DNA of 64,000 nt from Ureibacillus thermophilus (GTDB lineage: Bacteria > Bacillota > Bacilli > Bacillales_A > Planococcaceae), in assembly GCF_004331915.1 (NCBI RefSeq), contig NZ_CP036528.1, positions 2,055,651 through 2,119,650 on the forward strand, in the 5' to 3' direction. The notes under the pieces were generated by a model. It was not told where the DNA came from. It searched no databases and saw only the letters and a program-made list of their open reading frames with translations. Numbering within the stretch: the first letter of the stretch is position 1; every line of letters starts with the position of its first letter. A program made the translations under genes and the position numbers. Below are positions 286 through 44,562 of the stretch, in pieces.

Positions 286-1299
286 TTATAAAACAACTAA
301 CGCATGAGAGCCTAATTGTTCATAAGAACGGAAAAATGTGTTTTCATCAATTTTTTCGATGCCTTTTAAAGGATTCATAATCGTTACTTTTCCATTTTCA
401 TAACCTGTCATCACAACGGCATGTAAATTTTTATAAATGTTATGTTTGTTCTTCGTTCCATCTATTATCCAATACCCCAATGTTGTTGGTTTCTTCCAAT
501 CAATCGTAACTAGCGTTAAAACCGGGACGCCAGATTTTACATAATTGATCAGTTCTTCTTTTGTTGCTTTCGTTATATCCATTGCACGAAAATCTGCATT
601 ATTTTCCGCTAAAATTTGGTTTGCCGCTTCCACAAGTGGCGGTGCATAAACATAATACCCGCCATCTTTCTTTTTCGGATTACCGGCATAAGCCTTATTT
701 GGATCTGGTCCGTACATAACCCCATTTTTTGTATACACTTTGGATTTTGGCAAATAGTCATTGACTTTCATTTTATCGATTTTAATGCCGTAGTAATTTA
801 AGATGGCGGTCAGGGAAGTTACTTCACATCCATTTGGGAATTCAGGGTTTTGCAACACGACCGGAACTTTTAACCCTTCTTTCGGAGAAGTATTGAACGT
901 CTGAATTTGCACAACAGGCTTTTTCGGATTAAATACAATTGTTTCCTGGGATTGCTCCATCCATTCGCCGCTGTCCAAAATACGGTAAATGACAATATCA
1001 TAAGGCTGTTCCGGAATCACTTGTTCAAAATGCACCATTCCTTTTTTATCGGCAATCCCTCGTTCAATCTCTTGCTTTGTTTCAAAATCAAGCAATACAA
1101 CTCCTAAATTAGCGATACCTTCTTGGCTTGAGTATTCTACCGTTTGAACGGTTAAAACTTGAGATGATTCTTCGGAAAGATTTAATGCGCTATATTGCTG
1201 TTTACCGGATGTATTCAATTGTTGACTTTCTACCGCTGAATTACAGCCTGTCAGCAAAATAAAGGACATACCAACGAACAAAAGGGGATGTTTTTTCAT
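286..1299 (-). CDS. Lipoprotein with C39-like cysteine peptidase domain
   Basis: A 337-residue exported lipoprotein. The first residues form a signal sequence ending in the lipobox LLTGC, so Cys19 would be lipidated after cleavage. Residues about 60-115 look like a small immunoglobulin/Cna-B-type fold (GVVLLDFETKQEIERG). The C-terminal half is a C39_2-type peptidase: a Cys in PNGCEVTSL (about residue 158), a His in LHAVVMTGYENG (about 293) and Asn in MNPLKG as the likely triad. It probably acts outside the membrane on peptides or cell-wall material; the substrate is unknown. The ATG at 1297-1299 is preferred over a TTG four codons earlier because the AGGAG lies directly against that TTG. It stands alone, head to head with the next gene. 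Confidence 0.8.
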   Translation of the reverse strand: MKKHPLLFVGMSFILLTGCNSAVESQQLNTSGKQQYSALNLSEESSQVLTVQTVEYSSQEGIANLGVVLLDFETKQEIERGIADKKGMVHFEQVIPEQPYDIVIYRILDSGEWMEQSQETIVFNPKKPVVQIQTFNTSPKEGLKVPVVLQNPEFPNGCEVTSLTAILNYYGIKIDKMKVNDYLPKSKVYTKNGVMYGPDPNKAYAGNPKKKDGGYYVYAPPLVEAANQILAENNADFRAMDITKATKEELINYVKSGVPVLTLVTIDWKKPTTLGYWIIDGTKNKHNIYKNLHAVVMTGYENGKVTIMNPLKGIEKIDENTFFRSYEQLGSHALVVL

Positions 1300-11249: not shown

Positions 11250-11285
11250 TAGGAAGCTGGGACATAAACATAAAAATTAAACGGC
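11250..11285. repeat. Remnant of intergenic repeat family B
   Basis: GGAAGCTGGGACATAAACATAAAAATTAAA matches the end of the family B repeat at 14762-15041 and 44559-44660 (GAGGCTGGGACATAAACAAAAAATTAAA). The rest of the element is missing here. Confidence 0.6.
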
Positions 11286-13506: not shown

Positions 13507-14085
13507 ATGACAGTAGATGCTAAAAATGCCTATAACGGAATTGTTTTACTGACAGGCTACTTGCAGCGTTTATATGTGTTTGAAAAGATTCATCATGAGT
13601 TGAACATGCCTCATGAACCGGAACGCCTTCAGCAAGTGAAGGAATTATTTGATGATACATTGGCAATGTTGCCGATTTTTGAACAAACGAAAGAGCTGTT
13701 TCCAACACAAGTTAATAAGCTGAAATCTGTGACGGAAAAAGTGGAAAATCTGATGTCCACTTATTTTAAAGAAGAGCCGCTTTCTTTTCATGAGAAGCTG
13801 GCTTATGTTGGTTCCACCCTCTATTCAGAGCAGCATGTGAATTTAGGCATCCTCCGCCTTGGCAAAGTGTTTCAAGTGGAAGTGAATAAAGATTTTGAGA
13901 AGCGCGTGAAATATTACGAAGAGCGAACAAAATTTATTGATACGATCGTGTCACTTATTAAAAATAAGAAGCCAATTGAAGAAAAAGCCATCAACGTCAT
14001 TAATTTGTGGTATACAAATGTGGAAAAAAATAAAGAAAATATTTTAAAGGATCTTCAATTAATTGGAAAACTTATTGGATTTTAA
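13507..14085 (+). CDS. Helical cytosolic protein of unknown function
   Basis: A 192-residue protein predicted to be nearly all helical, with no signal or membrane segment. It contains repeated amphipathic helices (NAYNGIVLLTGYLQRL, LQQVKELFDDTLAML, FEKRVKYYEERTKFIDTI). I do not recognise the family with confidence. The ATG is preceded by a weak AAAGTGGG site. It is monocistronic with its own promoter region (about 110 bases) and a strong terminator. Confidence 0.7.
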   Translation: MTVDAKNAYNGIVLLTGYLQRLYVFEKIHHELNMPHEPERLQQVKELFDDTLAMLPIFEQTKELFPTQVNKLKSVTEKVENLMSTYFKEEPLSFHEKLAYVGSTLYSEQHVNLGILRLGKVFQVEVNKDFEKRVKYYEERTKFIDTIVSLIKNKKPIEEKAINVINLWYTNVEKNKENILKDLQLIGKLIGF

Positions 14086-14761: not shown

Positions 14762-15041
14762 ATGAGGCTGGGACAAATCTAAAAAACATCACTTTCTCCA
14801 AAGAGAAAATGATGTTTTTTTTGATATGTTATTAAAATTGATTTCCGTTCCGGGGACGCTTTCCGCGGGCCCGGCTCGAGCCTCCTCGGAGCTCATTACT
14901 TCGCTCCTGCGGTGTCTCGAGACACGGGCTGTTCCCGCAGGAGTCGCCCCGTCACTCCAATCAATTTTTAGTTATATCAATTTTTTATCAAAACTCTTTC
15001 AACTGCCCCTTTAATTTTTTGTTTATGTCCCAGCCTCTTTC
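14762..15041. repeat. Intergenic repeat, family B, full length
   Basis: About 280 bases bounded by inverted ends GAGGCTGGGACA and TGTCCCAGCCTC. The centre (14845-14965) is strikingly GC-rich for this genome and palindromic: GGGGACGCTTTCCGCGGG ... CCCGCAGGAGTCGCCCCGTC, with CGAGCCTCCTCGGAGC between. The right half recurs inverted at 44559-44660, and a fragment occurs at 11250-11285. Similar GC-rich palindromes are common between genes in Bacillaceae. No ORF is carried. Confidence 0.8.
14781..14822 (+). terminator. Terminator after yneP
   Basis: AAACATCACTTTCTC-CAAA-GAGAAAATGATGTTTTTTTT: a 13-bp stem with one mismatch and eight T. It lies inside the family B repeat, near its left end. Confidence 0.85.
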
Positions 15042-15111
15042 TTTTGATTATTCTATAATGGTTCCGCGATTTTTGTTATAATGACGATTGTGAGTAAAAG
15101 GAGGGATGTTT

Positions 15112-18100
15112 ATGGCGCTAACGGTAGAAACGGTGAAATGTTTTATTGTCTTGACGAATACTGCCCGGGAAGCAATAAAAGAGCATTTTGTCGACGAACA
15201 AGCCTTTTTTCAAATGCAATCGTCTTTTTTTGTTTATTTAGAAAAGACGTCCGTTGAAGAAACATCCCTTTCCCTTACCATTTATTTTGAGAATGAACGA
15301 AATGAAAAATTAGCGAAAAAAATGAAGGAACGCGTCGTTATTTTAGACTGCGTATTTGATAGAAAAAATGGACTCATCGCAAAAAATTTCCGAACGAAGG
15401 GGAAGCATACCCCTGTCAAAACCAATCGAAGAAAAGCGATGAGAATTCATTTTGCACCAACGAGAATGAATGGACACTCCTATCCGGAAGTCTTTTTAAG
15501 AACCATCGCCGAATTGCCCGTTGCAACAGACAAATATCATTATGTCAACAAACGAATCGCCAGCTGGGAAGGATATTTAAAAGTATTATATAAAAATGCC
15601 AACATCGATGATATCGAAGCAACTATACAATCGGTATCCTACAGTTCAGACTTTTCAAACGCTACCCTCAAACTTAGCGGGATTGCTAATAAAGAGTGGA
15701 AAATATTAAAAGGAATGAACGTCTATATAAAAGGGATAAAAAATGAAGTTGGGGAAGTAGTGAAGACGAATGCACAACGTCAAAGCGTTGACATTGAATT
15801 AACGCCTCAATTGAGTAAACTTGCTAAAGAAAAGGATTTCGATTTCCCCACAGAAACGGTCACTTTCAGCAATGCCTCGACAAAATCCCAGCTCAACCGC
15901 TTATTAAAAGGCTTCGAACAATTAAAAGAAGGGCTTGCGGCCAATCCCAACTTGGAAAACTTTTTATTTGAAGACGAGCCAAAGGTAGCAAAACGAAAAA
16001 ACCACATGCAAATTGAATTTCATAATCCATTAAATGAATTTCAAAAAGAAGCGGTGCTTGGCGCTCTTGAAACTGAAGACTTATATGTCATTCAAGGACC
16101 GCCTGGAACAGGGAAAACAACGGTCATTTCTGAAATTTGCTACCAAAACGTGAAAATGGGATTAAAGACGTTAATTGCTTCCCAATCAAACTTAGCGGTG
16201 GATAATGCCTTGGGCCGCCTCCTTTCGAATAAAGATATTCGGATTTTGCGCTATGGACGGACAGACAGCATCGAAGAAGAAGGGAAAAAATTTATTGAGG
16301 AAAATGTGGCGGAATATTGGAAAATTCAAACCTTTGAAGCTCTTTCCAATGAAATTAGGCAGCACGATGAAAAAGAAATCCTTTTAAAAAATGCCATTCA
16401 AGATTGTAAGCAGCAGATTGAAAGTTTGGAGAAAAAAGCAGCTGCATTAGAAAAGGATATTGTGAGGAAACAGCAGGCTGAAAAGGAATTACAAGAAGCC
16501 TTTGCAACTATTGCTGACTTAAAAAAGCAGATTATTGCGCTGAATAAGGAAAAAGAAAAAAAGGAACAAAGTATTGCAGCTTGCCAAACAGCGTTACATG
16601 AAAAAATCGAGAAACTAACTGAAATTGAAAGTGCGTTATCCAGCAAAGAGGCAGAAAAAATCCGCCAAGAAATCAGCGAAGCAGAACGGCAAATGGAGGA
16701 AAGCAAACATTTCATTCGCTTTAGTAAGACGAGGGAGCGACTGCAAAGAGTGCAATGGGAATTGCAACAAGTTTCCAATGAACTTTCATTATTGGAAACG
16801 AAAAGGGAGCAATCGGATGAGTTGCTGACTCAATTGCAATCTTTAAAAAAAGTAGATGAACTCAAAGAGTTTATCGAAACCTATGGAATCCGGAGAAAAT
16901 TTGCCATCAACCAGCTGCTTTTGGACATGGAAAAACTCCATCAGCAAATATTGGAATTGAAACCGGCCATCCAAATTTCTGAACGGATTGAAAAAGCCAT
17001 TGAATACAACCAGAAAACATTGAGAATTCCCATTGAACCCGTTTCATTGCCGCCGCACCACCATTATTCCCTACATGAAGTGAATGAGTTTTTGAATAAA
17101 CTTGCCCTTGCTTTCAAACAGCAAAAAATCAATCGGCAAAATGGCATTCCTTCCATTCGAGGGCTATTTTTAAGACGGCTGTTTGTCAATGAACTATTGC
17201 ATCAATATCAATCTTTAGCGGATGAATCAAGACTTGTTTTCAACAAATTAAAAAAAGCTGTTTATGATCAATATTTAGAAAGCATCGGCATCAATGAAGG
17301 CCAAATTCAAACATTAGAACAAAAAAGAAATCACCTAGAGCAAACTCTTTTGCAATATGAAAAAGAACTGGACGAGCTGCAAATCGAAAAAGCTGATTTT
17401 ATTCCATCCGTTGATGAACTTCAAGCAGTAATCCATTCATTGCAAGAAAAACTCTATCATCTTGAGAAACAACAAGAAAACCTTCAAGTTTTTGAAACAC
17501 AAAAAGCTCGACTGAAAAAAGAAATCGATGAAAACGAACGGGAACTTTCCCATCAACAAGCATTAGTAGAAACTTTGGAAAAGGAAATTAAATCGCTGCA
17601 TCGTCAAGGAATTGCGATGGAACGAAAAGCAGAAGAATTTCAGAAAATCTTAAAACGAACCCCAGAATTGGAATTGGAAGAGACGAATAAAAAAATAAAG
17701 AACTGCTACCTTGAAATTGAAAAATACGAACGCCAAATCAAGCGGCTGCCAATTACAAAGGAAATCCAAAAAGAATGGTTCTCTTTATTAAACCGAGCAA
17801 CAGAACAGGATTTAGAAGAAATTCGAAAACTTTACGTCAAACACGCGAATGTCATTGGTACAACCTGCGTTGCCTCTGCCAATAAAGAGTTTATGGACAA
17901 CTATCCGATTTTTGATGTAGTCATTATTGATGAAGTGTCAAAAGCCACACCTCCTGAACTTTTGCTTCCAATGTTAAAAGGAAAGAAAATCATCCTTGTC
18001 GGCGACCATCATCAACTGCCGCCTTTAATTGGCGACGATACCTTTGAAGAAACGCTGGAAGAAATCTTGAAAAATATGGATGGTTTTGAAGAAAAACGAG

Positions 18101-18885
18101 AGCTGGAAAAACTGTTGGAAGAATCTTTATTTGAACGCCTTTATAAAAACTTGCCAAGCACCAATAAGAAAATGCTTGGCATTCAATACCGCATGCATGA
18201 AAAAATTATGCAAACGATTGCACCTTTCTATCAAAATGGAAATGAATCTTTGCAATGCGGCCTCACAAACTCTGATGAAGTAAGAGACCATCGACTGGAA
18301 GGCCACTTTGTAAAACGACATGAACATTTGCTATGGTTTGACATCCCAAATGAGCCGTTTTATTTTGAAGAACGGATGCAAGAAGGTTCCAGCTTATTCA
18401 ATACTTCAGAACTAGAAATCATTAAGGAATTATTGATAGACTTAAACGATGCAACGGCAAAAGGGAAAGAAAATGGGCAATTTGAGAAAGAAGCGTTAAA
18501 ATCTGTGGGTGTAATCAGCTTCTATAGAGAACAGGTTAACCGGGTGAATCAATTAGTTGAAGAACTGAATTTGCCTCATTTGCATATTCGCACAGGTTCA
18601 GTCGATAAGTTCCAAGGAATGGAAATGGATGTCATTTTATTAAGTATGGTACGCAATAACCAACATGGGGAAATCGGCTTTGCCAAAGACTATCGCCGTT
18701 TAAACGTCGCTTTATCCCGAGCGCGGGAATTGCTGATGATCGTCGGCAGCTCTGAAATGTTTACAAAACGTCCGAAAAAGAAAGAAACGAGAGAGATGTA
18801 TCAGCGCTTATATGAGGTTGTGAAAGCCCTGCAAGGAATACGAACAATTACGAAGGAGCCTGCGACATGGAACTCCAACAATTAA
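15112..18885 (+). CDS. Large SF1 (UPF1-like) helicase with coiled-coil insertion
   Basis: A 1257-residue cytosolic protein. Residues 1 to about 310 form an N-terminal domain I do not recognise. The SF1 motor follows: Walker A GPPGTGKTT at about 329, motif Ia SQSNLAVDNAL, then an insertion of roughly 500 residues (about 410-910) full of heptad-like Lys/Glu/Gln/Leu helices, i.e. two long antiparallel coiled coils. Motif II is IIDEVS (Asp940), motif III VGDHHQLPP, motif IV QYRM (about 1025), motif V VDKFQGMEMD and motif VI RRLNVALSRAR. There is no nuclease, PLD or zinc domain at the C-terminus. The ATG at 15112 lies seven bases after AGGAGG; the ATG at 15106 is too close. It overlaps the next gene by 19 bases. 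It likely acts on RNA or DNA; a role in repair, RNA metabolism or defence is open. Confidence 0.85.
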   Translation: MALTVETVKCFIVLTNTAREAIKEHFVDEQAFFQMQSSFFVYLEKTSVEETSLSLTIYFENERNEKLAKKMKERVVILDCVFDRKNGLIAKNFRTKGKHTPVKTNRRKAMRIHFAPTRMNGHSYPEVFLRTIAELPVATDKYHYVNKRIASWEGYLKVLYKNANIDDIEATIQSVSYSSDFSNATLKLSGIANKEWKILKGMNVYIKGIKNEVGEVVKTNAQRQSVDIELTPQLSKLAKEKDFDFPTETVTFSNASTKSQLNRLLKGFEQLKEGLAANPNLENFLFEDEPKVAKRKNHMQIEFHNPLNEFQKEAVLGALETEDLYVIQGPPGTGKTTVISEICYQNVKMGLKTLIASQSNLAVDNALGRLLSNKDIRILRYGRTDSIEEEGKKFIEENVAEYWKIQTFEALSNEIRQHDEKEILLKNAIQDCKQQIESLEKKAAALEKDIVRKQQAEKELQEAFATIADLKKQIIALNKEKEKKEQSIAACQTALHEKIEKLTEIESALSSKEAEKIRQEISEAERQMEESKHFIRFSKTRERLQRVQWELQQVSNELSLLETKREQSDELLTQLQSLKKVDELKEFIETYGIRRKFAINQLLLDMEKLHQQILELKPAIQISERIEKAIEYNQKTLRIPIEPVSLPPHHHYSLHEVNEFLNKLALAFKQQKINRQNGIPSIRGLFLRRLFVNELLHQYQSLADESRLVFNKLKKAVYDQYLESIGINEGQIQTLEQKRNHLEQTLLQYEKELDELQIEKADFIPSVDELQAVIHSLQEKLYHLEKQQENLQVFETQKARLKKEIDENERELSHQQALVETLEKEIKSLHRQGIAMERKAEEFQKILKRTPELELEETNKKIKNCYLEIEKYERQIKRLPITKEIQKEWFSLLNRATEQDLEEIRKLYVKHANVIGTTCVASANKEFMDNYPIFDVVIIDEVSKATPPELLLPMLKGKKIILVGDHHQLPPLIGDDTFEETLEEILKNMDGFEEKRELEKLLEESLFERLYKNLPSTNKKMLGIQYRMHEKIMQTIAPFYQNGNESLQCGLTNSDEVRDHRLEGHFVKRHEHLLWFDIPNEPFYFEERMQEGSSLFNTSELEIIKELLIDLNDATAKGKENGQFEKEALKSVGVISFYREQVNRVNQLVEELNLPHLHIRTGSVDKFQGMEMDVILLSMVRNNQHGEIGFAKDYRRLNVALSRARELLMIVGSSEMFTKRPKKKETREMYQRLYEVVKALQGIRTITKEPATWNSNN

Positions 18886-19619
18886 AACAACAATTAGAAA
18901 AAGAAATGAAGGGAACGATTGTTCATACGGATATTTGGTGTCTTCCTATGCATACGTATGAAATCACCTATCAGCCCATCGAAAAAAAGACGATGGATAT
19001 TTTAATGAAAATTTTGCTGTTTTCATTTCAAAAATCCACTTTTGAAAACGCGGAAGAACTGAGCGACATTTTATTGGTGGAGCCTTTATTTATAGAAGAT
19101 TTGATGCGGAAAATGCAAAAAAATGGGTTGCTGGCAAGGGAAAACAAGGTTTATCAATTGACCGAAAAAGGGAAGCAACAATTTGCCCAGGGAGTCTTTG
19201 AAGAAGAATTAGATCCTGTGACGGTGGAGTTGTTATATAGCCCAACCCATTCCAACATTTTCCATGGAGATATAGAAGAAGTATTGGATTATGATGATTT
19301 TCCAGACCAATTATACCGCTATATGAAAAATGAAGAGGAAACATTGAATCAAGAGTTTTTCATAAATGAAATACAAAAAATGTACTTGGATTCAATGGAC
19401 GAAAGTGAGCAGGAAATCAAATCCATTTTATCATTGGAAAAGGTGCAAATTAATGATGTTCCATGCATTGAACTGATTATTTGGAACAATGAAAAGAAGG
19501 AATTTTTTCCTCGGGTGTGGAATACGTTATTAAATAATTGGGATGAATTTTTAGAAAAAGAAATATTTGAGAAGGAAAAGTTGGAGTGGTTCGAGAAATT
19601 TCAGAGTGAAATCAAATAG
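18867..19619 (+). CDS. Winged-helix-like partner of the SF1 helicase, unknown function
   Basis: A 250-residue protein whose ATG lies inside the end of the helicase gene, with AAGGAG eight bases upstream, so translation is probably coupled. Residues about 35-105 look like a winged helix: helices FSFQKSTFENAEELSDILL and PLFIEDLMRKMQKNGLL, then a wing with RENKVYQLTEKGKQQF. The C-terminal half is acidic and helical, with two Trp-rich segments (IIWNNEKKEFF, VWNTLLNNWDEF). No catalytic motif is seen. A DNA- or RNA-binding adaptor or regulator for the helicase is the simplest reading. The pair forms a closed two-gene unit, followed by the metA riboswitch promoter. Confidence 0.7.
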   Translation: MELQQLKQQLEKEMKGTIVHTDIWCLPMHTYEITYQPIEKKTMDILMKILLFSFQKSTFENAEELSDILLVEPLFIEDLMRKMQKNGLLARENKVYQLTEKGKQQFAQGVFEEELDPVTVELLYSPTHSNIFHGDIEEVLDYDDFPDQLYRYMKNEEETLNQEFFINEIQKMYLDSMDESEQEIKSILSLEKVQINDVPCIELIIWNNEKKEFFPRVWNTLLNNWDEFLEKEIFEKEKLEWFEKFQSEIK

Positions 19620-19686
19620 CTCGAATATTGCATTTCTCTATTGGATATGTTAGGATATTCTTAATTTTATATGGAATTAATACTTT

Positions 19687-19791
19687 CTTATCAAGAGAAG
19701 TGGAGGGACTTGGCCCAATGAAACTTCAGCAACCTCTAACGGATGTTAGAAAGGTGCTAATTCCAGCAAGGTGTAACCTTGGGAGATAAGA
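19687..19791 (+). ncRNA. SAM-I (S-box) riboswitch
   Basis: The conserved S-box order is complete: P1 strand CTTATCAAGAGAAG, GTGGAGGGACT, GGCCCAATGAAACTTC, CAGCAACCTC, AAGGTGCTAATTCCAGCA and the closing GGGAGATAAGAG that pairs with the first strand. It lies about 90 bases before metA and is followed by an expression-platform terminator. With S-adenosylmethionine bound, the terminator should form and metA be switched off. Confidence 0.96.
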
Positions 19792-19811
19792 GAGTGTGCA
19801 TGAAATATTTG

Positions 19812-19852
19812 TACCCTCTCATTCTCATTGCTGGAATGAGAGGGTTTTTTAT
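19812..19852 (+). terminator. Expression-platform terminator of the SAM riboswitch
   Basis: ACCCTCTCATTC-TCATTGCT-GGAATGAGAGGG-TTTTTT. An 11-bp stem and T-run between the aptamer and the metA start. Confidence 0.93.
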
Positions 19853-19883
19853 TTCAGATTATTTAGAAATGGGGGACAAGGGA

Positions 19884-20822
19884 ATGCCAATTAATATTCC
19901 TAAAAATTTACCAGCTGGAGAAATATTAAGAAATGAAAAAATTTTCGTCATGGAAGAGGACCGCGCATTATCGCAGGACATTCGGCCATTAAACATTTTA
20001 GTGTTGAATTTAATGCCTGAGAAAGAAAAAGCGGAACTTCAATTGCTGCGCTTGCTTGGAAATACGCCGCTGCAAACGAATGTAACCTTTTTAAATACTG
20101 CTACATATGAATCAAAAAATGTATCAAAAAGCCATTTAGAGTTGTTTTATAAAACATTTGATAAAATTAAACACCGCCGTTTTGATGGAATGGTCATCAC
20201 AGGGGCGCCTGTGGAACGCATGGAATTTGAAGAAGTCAACTATTGGAAAGAATTGACTGAAATTTTAGACTGGGCGAAAGTGAATGTCACATCAATCATT
20301 TATATCTGTTGGGCTGCACAGGCGGCTTTGTATTACCATTTTGGCATTGGCAAGTTTGAATTGCCGAAAAAATGTTCCGGCATTTATTCCCATACAATTA
20401 CGGACTTAACGAACGATTTAGTTCGTGGTTTCAACGATGAATTTGTGGCGCCTCATTCACGATATACATCTGTTTCCATCGAGGAAATCGAGCAGCATCC
20501 GGATTTAAAATTATTAAGTTATTCTGAAGAAGTTGGGCCTTTTATCATTCAATCAAAAGACAATAAACACATTATGATTACCGGTCACTTGGAATATGAT
20601 GCCACAACCCTTGCAGAAGAATATGAGCGTGACATAAAGAAAGGTTTGCCGGTCGACATACCAGAAAATTATTTCCCTGACAACGACCCAACAAAACAGC
20701 CAAAAAATTATTGGCGCGCCCATGCCCACTTATTATTCTACAACTGGTTAAACTACTACGTTTACCAAGAAACGCCGTACGATTGGCACTATGTGGAAGA
20801 TGCCATTAATTTCGAAATTTAA
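19884..20822 (+). CDS. metA: Homoserine O-acetyltransferase (MetA family)
   Basis: A 312-residue MetA/HTS-family enzyme that activates homoserine for methionine synthesis. The catalytic Cys142 is in YICWAAQAA, with HSRYT and GHLEYD (His/Glu of the triad) further on. Residue 111 is Glu (ITGAPVE); in this family Glu111 marks acetyl-CoA use, as in Bacillus cereus MetA, while Gly111 marks succinyl-CoA use in E. coli. Acetyl transfer is therefore inferred despite the old name. The ATG at 19884 gives the family-typical [10 protein letters not shown] start with GGGGGAC/AAGGG upstream. It is controlled by the SAM-I riboswitch and is a single-gene unit. Confidence 0.95.
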
Positions 20823-44082: not shown

Positions 44083-44562
44083 TTTCAACAATCGGTGTGG
44101 CAACAGCCATTATGATTTCAGGAATCTGCAGGTGCAGCAAACCTTGGTGTGGCAGCATCAGGCGTCGGCATGTGCATTGCAGCCTATAAAGCCATCATTT
44201 AGGAACAGCCATTGCCCATTTTGCTTCAGCCAAAATTGAAATGCGCAATTTCTTTATGAAGCCGCGCATTGCATATCCTATGATTTTAACAGCCGCGATT
44301 TAAGGCGGATTGTTCGGAGTACTTCAAATTGTCGGAACACCATAACAGCGCAGGATTTGAACTAGCCGGATTTGTCGGTCCATTAAAATATTTGGATTTA
44401 GTTGGCTGGAATTTCAAAAGTATTACAATATCCATTACGATGTTCATCGCATTGCCTGCTATTTTAAATATTGTCTTCTTAAAACTCTTTGAAAAGAAAT
44501 TTAAATGGATTAAATCTGATGATTATTTAGTTTCATACGAAAATGAACACATCTTGGGATGA
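44083..44562 (+). pseudogene. PTS sugar permease-like (EIIC type 2), decayed
   Basis: Translation in shifting frames gives family-like blocks: AGAANLGVAASGVGMCIAAY, then GTAIAHFASAKIEMRNFFMK and PRIAYPMILTAAI, GGLFGVLQIVGTP, AGFELAGFVGPLKYLDLVGW and ISITMFIALPAILNIVFLK. These belong to a PTS-type/EIIC membrane transporter family. At least two in-frame stops (near 44200 and 44301) and frameshifts break it, and the N-terminal half is missing. The last block is open from about 44330 to the stop at 44562. Confidence 0.65.

Follow-up and report, generated by a model that had tools for sequence, protein, structure and literature searches.

What does a long-armed UPF1-type helicase do when it is encoded together with a small winged-helix protein, and when neither protein carries a recognisable nuclease? 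The question is raised by two overlapping genes in a 64,000-nucleotide stretch of DNA from Ureibacillus thermophilus (NZ_CP036528.1, positions 2,055,651 to 2,119,650; hereafter the window), which an initial annotation, made from the sequence alone, had described as a two-gene unit that might belong either to anti-phage defence or to the housekeeping equipment of this family. The features of both genes are collected in Table 1.

Table 1 Features of the two genes, in coordinates of the window.
Feature	Residues	Position	Strand	Basis
Gene 1 ribosome-binding site AAGGAGG		15098..15104	+	Direct sequence reading
Gene 1, UPF1/IGHMBP2-like SF1 helicase, 1257 aa		15112..18885	+	ORF; profile and structure matches
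N-terminal domain, beta-rich	1-141	15112..15534	+	AlphaFold2 model, pLDDT about 85-93
UPF1-type stalk helices and 1B barrel	142-272	15535..15927	+	Model; fold and profile matches
Motif I (Walker A) GPPGTGKT	329-336	16096..16119	+	
Motif Ia QSNLAVDNA	358-366	16183..16209	+	
Coiled coil 1	406-583	16327..16860	+	AlphaFold2 model; Lupas-type score
Presumed arm tip, short helices	584-716	16861..17259	+	AlphaFold2 model
Coiled coil 2	717-884	17260..17763	+	AlphaFold2 model; Lupas-type score
Motif II IIDEVS	938-943	17923..17940	+	
Motif III VGDHHQLPP	963-971	17998..18024	+	
QYRMH motif	1025-1029			
Motif V VDKFQGME	1164-1171	18601..18624	+	
Motif VI RRLNVALSRAR	1195-1205	18694..18726	+	
Gene 2 ribosome-binding site GAAGGAG, within gene 1		18852..18858	+	
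Gene 2, winged-helix protein, 250 aa		18867..19619	+	19-nt overlap with gene 1
Winged helix, MarR-type fold	43-110	18993..19196	+	AlphaFold2 model; fold match
C-terminal strand pair and long helix	182-250	19410..19616	+	

The helicase motifs of gene 1 are intact, including the DEVS-type motif II that the initial annotation had picked out, and nearly all motif residues are invariant in an alignment of 38 orthologues. The solved relatives nearest by sequence are IGHMBP2 (E 7e-53), UPF1, Dna2 and Sen1, and the fold of the model matches IGHMBP2 and UPF1 with Z of about 26 (28-29% identity over about 454-468 residues) and Dna2 with Z of about 24, in agreement with the proposed UPF1-like SF1 assignment. 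With UPF1, IGHMBP2 (Smubp-2), Dna2 and Sen1 the protein shares the core fold, the motifs, the stalk and the 1B barrel, but it differs from them in having a very long coiled-coil arm inserted between motifs Ia and II, an extra N-terminal domain and a bacterial partner gene. Because the fold match to IGHMBP2 begins at about residue 142, the stalk and the 1B barrel belong to the N-terminal part of the helicase, so that the N-terminal domain originally left unassigned shrinks to residues 1-141. These residues lie outside the UPF1-type fold matches, and residues 1-142 gave no match to the corresponding region of MkoA (E 0.22). Profile searches with Pfam, NCBIfam and PADLOC detected neither nuclease nor kinase domains in the two gene products, consistent with the description of the helicase as nuclease-free; an unrecognised enzyme may reside in the C-terminal part of the gene 2 product or in helicase residues 1-141. 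The start of gene 1 is placed at the ATG at 15112, 8 nt past AAGGAGG, an alternative in-frame ATG at 15106 having been rejected as too near this site.

Between motifs Ia and II the annotation had seen about 500 residues of coiled coil. The length was close, since the arm spans about 480 residues, but the region consists of two coils (both with P 1.0 by the Lupas-type score) and a tip of about 130 residues. In the AlphaFold2 model of the helicase, which covers residues 9-1208, helix is near-continuous from about 399 to 894, and the presumed tip is made of short helices; its part between residues 601 and 700 is more conserved than the coils. The order of these elements suggests an antiparallel arm, although we make no claim as to its geometry, given a pTM of 0.50 and moderate confidence in the arm.

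Gene 2 starts within the final codons of gene 1, at the ATG at 18867, 8 nt past its own GAAGGAG, as had been noticed at the outset. Its product was modelled with a mean pLDDT of 89 as a long N-terminal hairpin, a winged helix, a variable linker and, at the C-terminus, a strand pair with a helix, and MarR-type domains match residues 40-110 with Z of about 11. No Pfam or NCBIfam family scored above cut-off, so the protein stands, as first described, as winged-helix-like and without a known family. Its sequence found no useful match in the PDB (MntR 0.02, SMC 0.19), and among viral structures it matched generic winged helices only, none below E 0.001. The C-terminal part (residues 182-250), for which no known family was matched, contains conserved DVPCIEF and RVWNT..WD motifs, and conserved positions across the protein include D44, E72, T99, H128 (in YSPxH), R216, W218, N219 and D226. 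Homologues are 243-305 aa long in 41 of 41 loci.

In order to understand whether the two genes belong together, their distribution is most informative. Of 261 genomes surveyed from the order, those listed all belonging to one family, 238 carry the helicase and 237 the partner; the pair occurs in 16 of 19 genera and is single-copy in the family, and co-occurrence far exceeds chance. The sole mismatch is a 75%-complete assembly (G265) with the helicase on a short contig; the remaining negative genomes, among them all eight of genus g4 and all eight of genus g10, lack both genes. In a sample of the class (n = 398), strong partner scores outside the family were found in two genomes only, with the helicase adjoining in both. 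The two genes are adjacent in 41 of 41 loci from many genera, separated by -35 to +29 nt, and they are the only constant genes around these loci. Among the 80 named loci listed, out of 180, the helicase lies upstream on the same strand in 79, mostly directly adjacent; in the exception (L233) the partner has no adjoining helicase, and an intact helicase, likewise with no partner next to it, is found elsewhere in the same genome. The helicase is thus not usually found without the second gene, and the near-perfect co-occurrence and joint absence of the two establish helicase and partner as an obligate unit, as the two-gene reading had proposed.

The pair is apparently inherited mainly by descent. 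The locus is syntenic within the genus, and in a helicase tree (FastTree) genera are mostly grouped and copies from Bacillaceae fall into a single clade adjoining Planococcus, although this is a quick tree with several flagged long-branch joins, the detail of which we do not press. Distances for helicase and partner correlate at 0.85, for which shared ancestry is by itself a sufficient explanation. Searches of phages and plasmids found no copy of gene 2. Two records fall outside this pattern. The genome containing the exceptional locus (G1002) is labelled Arthrobacter beigongshangensis and carries a Caryophanaceae-type helicase and partner, both intact, at two separate places (L233 and L297). 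The pair is thus naturally split in this genome, which is probably mislabelled. A Bacillales-type partner gene on a contig of a Planctomycetes single-cell genome (L254) is probably contamination.

To which described systems is this unit related? Within PADLOC the nearest helicase family is MkoA of Mokosh (7e-115). A further library match is the PLuB helicase (2.7e-52). A profile of eleven Mokosh-type helicases aligned with ours at 1e-91 by hhalign, including the region before motif I, and residues 100-300 by themselves matched MkoA at 8e-8. For gene 2, comparison with a profile of the MkoB N-terminus gave E values of 4e-6 to 1e-7 (hhalign 1.1e-7), and the PADLOC MkoB model matched gene 2 homologues over positions 5-94 (2.8e-8, G229) and 9-94 (9e-7, G248). 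When the match was split, it resided in the winged helix (1.9e-8); outside this domain it was not significant (0.007 for the hairpin, in exact register, and 0.4 for the C-terminal part). Of 28 unrelated neighbour families used as controls 27 gave E values of at least 0.027, and column shuffles at least 0.04; one MarR family control reached 8.4e-5. As a genome-wide detector the MkoB N-terminal model was discarded as unspecific, since ordinary winged-helix proteins in these genomes score about as well. Gene 2 and MkoB thus probably share a common ancestor, but this falls short of proof. Mokosh type I shares with the pair the MkoA-type helicase, the order from helicase to winged-helix gene (a helicase-first order is common to the relatives inspected) and the alignable MkoB N-terminus; in contrast to Mokosh type I, the pair has neither an N-terminal Ser/Thr kinase nor a PLD nuclease, has much longer coils and is fixed in the family. 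A Mokosh type I-like locus in one genome of the survey (G007; L077, 5666-10720) encodes a kinase-helicase of 1190 aa and a PLD protein of 493 aa. Pairs of the Mokosh type and of the window type coexist in this genome and in another (G084, L174), and their presence together in G007 indicates two distinct systems in one cell.

A second relative is CoCoNuT, in which CnuH, a UPF1-like helicase with a coiled insert, is followed by an elongated winged-helix gene, CnuE (PMC11090510). The type II and III systems are defined by a UPF1-like helicase with a coiled-coil insertion after Walker A (PMC11090510). Their further features are a downstream protein with an elongated winged helix, an effector nuclease on CnuE or on the helicase, and the McrBC genes CnuB and CnuC alongside. 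Our pair shares with them a UPF1-like SF1 helicase in which a large, helical and partly coiled-coil segment is inserted after Walker A, with a gene for a winged-helix-domain protein next after the helicase, but no effector nuclease was found on its winged-helix protein or helicase, the arm is about 480 residues long, CnuB/CnuC and TerY-P are missing, and the locus lies outside a restriction island; no CnuB/CnuC genes recurred alongside the pair in 41 loci. As an answer to whether the pair belongs to a described system, the partner reaches no family cut-off, while the operon type, a helicase with a coiled insert plus an elongated winged-helix gene, has been described, normally with a nuclease. 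What is distinct here is that the pair has no recognisable effector and is fixed in one family.

Two further loci were also recorded. On a viral or integrative contig (L284, 3243-10989), a UPF1-like helicase of 1508 aa lies with recombinase-like genes, a coiled-coil protein of 356 aa and a winged-helix partner of 718 aa ending in an HEPN-like RNSLIH, which was read by eye because this second gene has no match in Pfam. The locus looks CoCoNuT-like, and gene 2 has a weak motif match to its CnuE-like protein. In a distant relative elsewhere in the phylum (L293, 4333-13146), genes for a helicase of 1275 aa, a partner of 674 aa with a C-terminus that by eye appears PIN-like, a coiled-coil protein of 371 aa and a protein of 612 aa follow in one run. 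Judging from their sequences, both loci would fit the helicase and winged-helix operon type with an effector.

On balance, we favour the interpretation that the pair is a nuclease-free relative of CnuH-CnuE and MkoA-MkoB, fixed in Caryophanaceae/Planococcaceae, that acts as an ATP-driven complex for nucleic-acid surveillance or remodelling. Gene 1 would encode an ATP-driven translocase of the UPF1 type (SF1B) on single-stranded RNA or DNA, in which the long coiled-coil arm would take the place of the short 1C insert. UPF1, IGHMBP2 and Dna2 translocate 5'-3' on a single strand, and the same direction would be expected here. The gene 2 product would form with it a two-protein complex on the CnuH-CnuE and MkoA-MkoB plan, without a recognisable effector nuclease, docking on the arm and reading or clamping nucleic acid; the role of adaptor suggested for it in the initial annotation is plausible by analogy with the AlphaFold2 multimer published for CnuH-CnuE (PMC11090510). 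Such a complex would sense or remodel nucleic acid without cutting it, its substrate most likely being endogenous nucleic acid (transcripts or ribosomes that have stalled, R-loops, ssDNA), and would not serve to kill infected cells. The module would now be a fixed, vertically inherited chromosomal system of the family, and its likeness to virus-defence modules, together with the lack of a recognisable cutting enzyme, suggests one that has turned into a fixed house gene. A more specific version, that a defence-derived module lost its nuclease and now serves family-wide in core nucleic-acid quality control, equivalent in bacteria to RNA surveillance of the UPF1 type and equipped with a dedicated adaptor, we put forward only tentatively.

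Alternatively, the pair could be a true anti-phage system that has become fixed in the family, in which the helicase would sense nucleic acid of the phage and the effector would be the winged-helix protein or some unrecognised domain. We consider this possible, if rather unlikely. It would account for the nearest library matches being defence proteins (MkoA and the PLuB helicase) and for related two-gene modules occurring on plasmids and, in L284, beside recombinase genes. The rate of evolution can also be read in this way: against the nearest relative, the helicase has a dN/dS of 0.083 and the partner one of 0.107, compared with 0.024-0.028 for three conserved neighbours, rough figures because synonymous sites are almost saturated. 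Purifying selection acts on both genes, the coils changing fastest and the motif blocks slowest within the helicase, and values of 0.08-0.11 against about 0.025 for neighbouring enzymes are compatible with a defence gene too. We prefer a housekeeping role because the pair is near-universal and single-copy, apparently descends vertically, lies in ordinary surroundings and has a partner gene without phage or plasmid copies; the synteny within the genus, the mostly grouped genera and the failure to find an effector likewise speak against defence. As for the surroundings, the proposed link to defence islands was not visible, 125 neighbour proteins from 16 loci showing no visible enrichment of defence genes with PADLOC (one frequent match, mad3, comprises 11 proteins, which is the number of ABC-transporter matches). 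A promoter scan gave no signal above shuffles. Overall, the housekeeping role that had been left open fits the distribution better than defence.

We regard it as improbable that the pair is a DNA-maintenance machine, in which the long-armed helicase would work as an SMC/Rad50-like tether in repair or replication. The length of the arm and its two-coil layout are what such a machine would have, and Dna2 is among the nearest folds. The SMC/Rad50-like arm imagined earlier is borne out in coil shape, as both have a long two-stretch coiled coil with a more conserved tip region; the motor, however, is SF1 and has no ABC head, SMC/Rad50 models match the coils only, and the likeness is one of shape. 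Moreover, the upstream regions of 121 loci contain no exact canonical LexA box, and there are 14 matches with a single mismatch where 13.1 are expected. That the genes are mere neighbours, the small protein being a transcription regulator of the locus, is suggested by the resemblance of its winged helix to MarR regulators but is very improbable, given that the pair is kept together across 16 genera despite differing surroundings, that both genes are absent jointly and that the sole genome with a split pair keeps both.

The pair offers, fixed across most of a family, a natural defence-type module of helicase and winged helix in which no cutting domain is recognisable, and opens the question of how helicase and winged helix act by themselves and whether parts of phage defence become household genes. 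It also calls for caution, as profile-based defence annotation may count fixed genes as immune systems, the helicase here being called by the PADLOC MkoA model. In one census Mokosh was reported in 93.8% of Bacillus cereus group genomes, mostly as type II, and nearly all of those type II calls came from one of two programs (PMC11811056).

Some further features of the locus were noted. Directly 3' of gene 2 and ahead of metA, a SAM riboswitch (RF00162, 97 bits, 19685-19792, + strand) with a terminator-like hairpin (19813-19845) shows where the two-gene unit ends. This hairpin falls within the long TTG-start metA ORF (19779-20822), so that the true metA start is probably further down. On the other side, a gene of unknown function encoding 192 aa (13507-14085), conserved in the genus and located upstream of the thioesterase gene, has a dN/dS of 0.12, a rate matching that of the pair. 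The interval from the thioesterase gene to the helicase contains an element of about 275 bp (14764-15037) bounded by inverted GAGGCTGGGACA 12-mers; a further copy of the 12-mer is found at 44561 and one with a single mismatch at 11253 (chance expectation 0.09), and the element looks like a small interspersed repeat.
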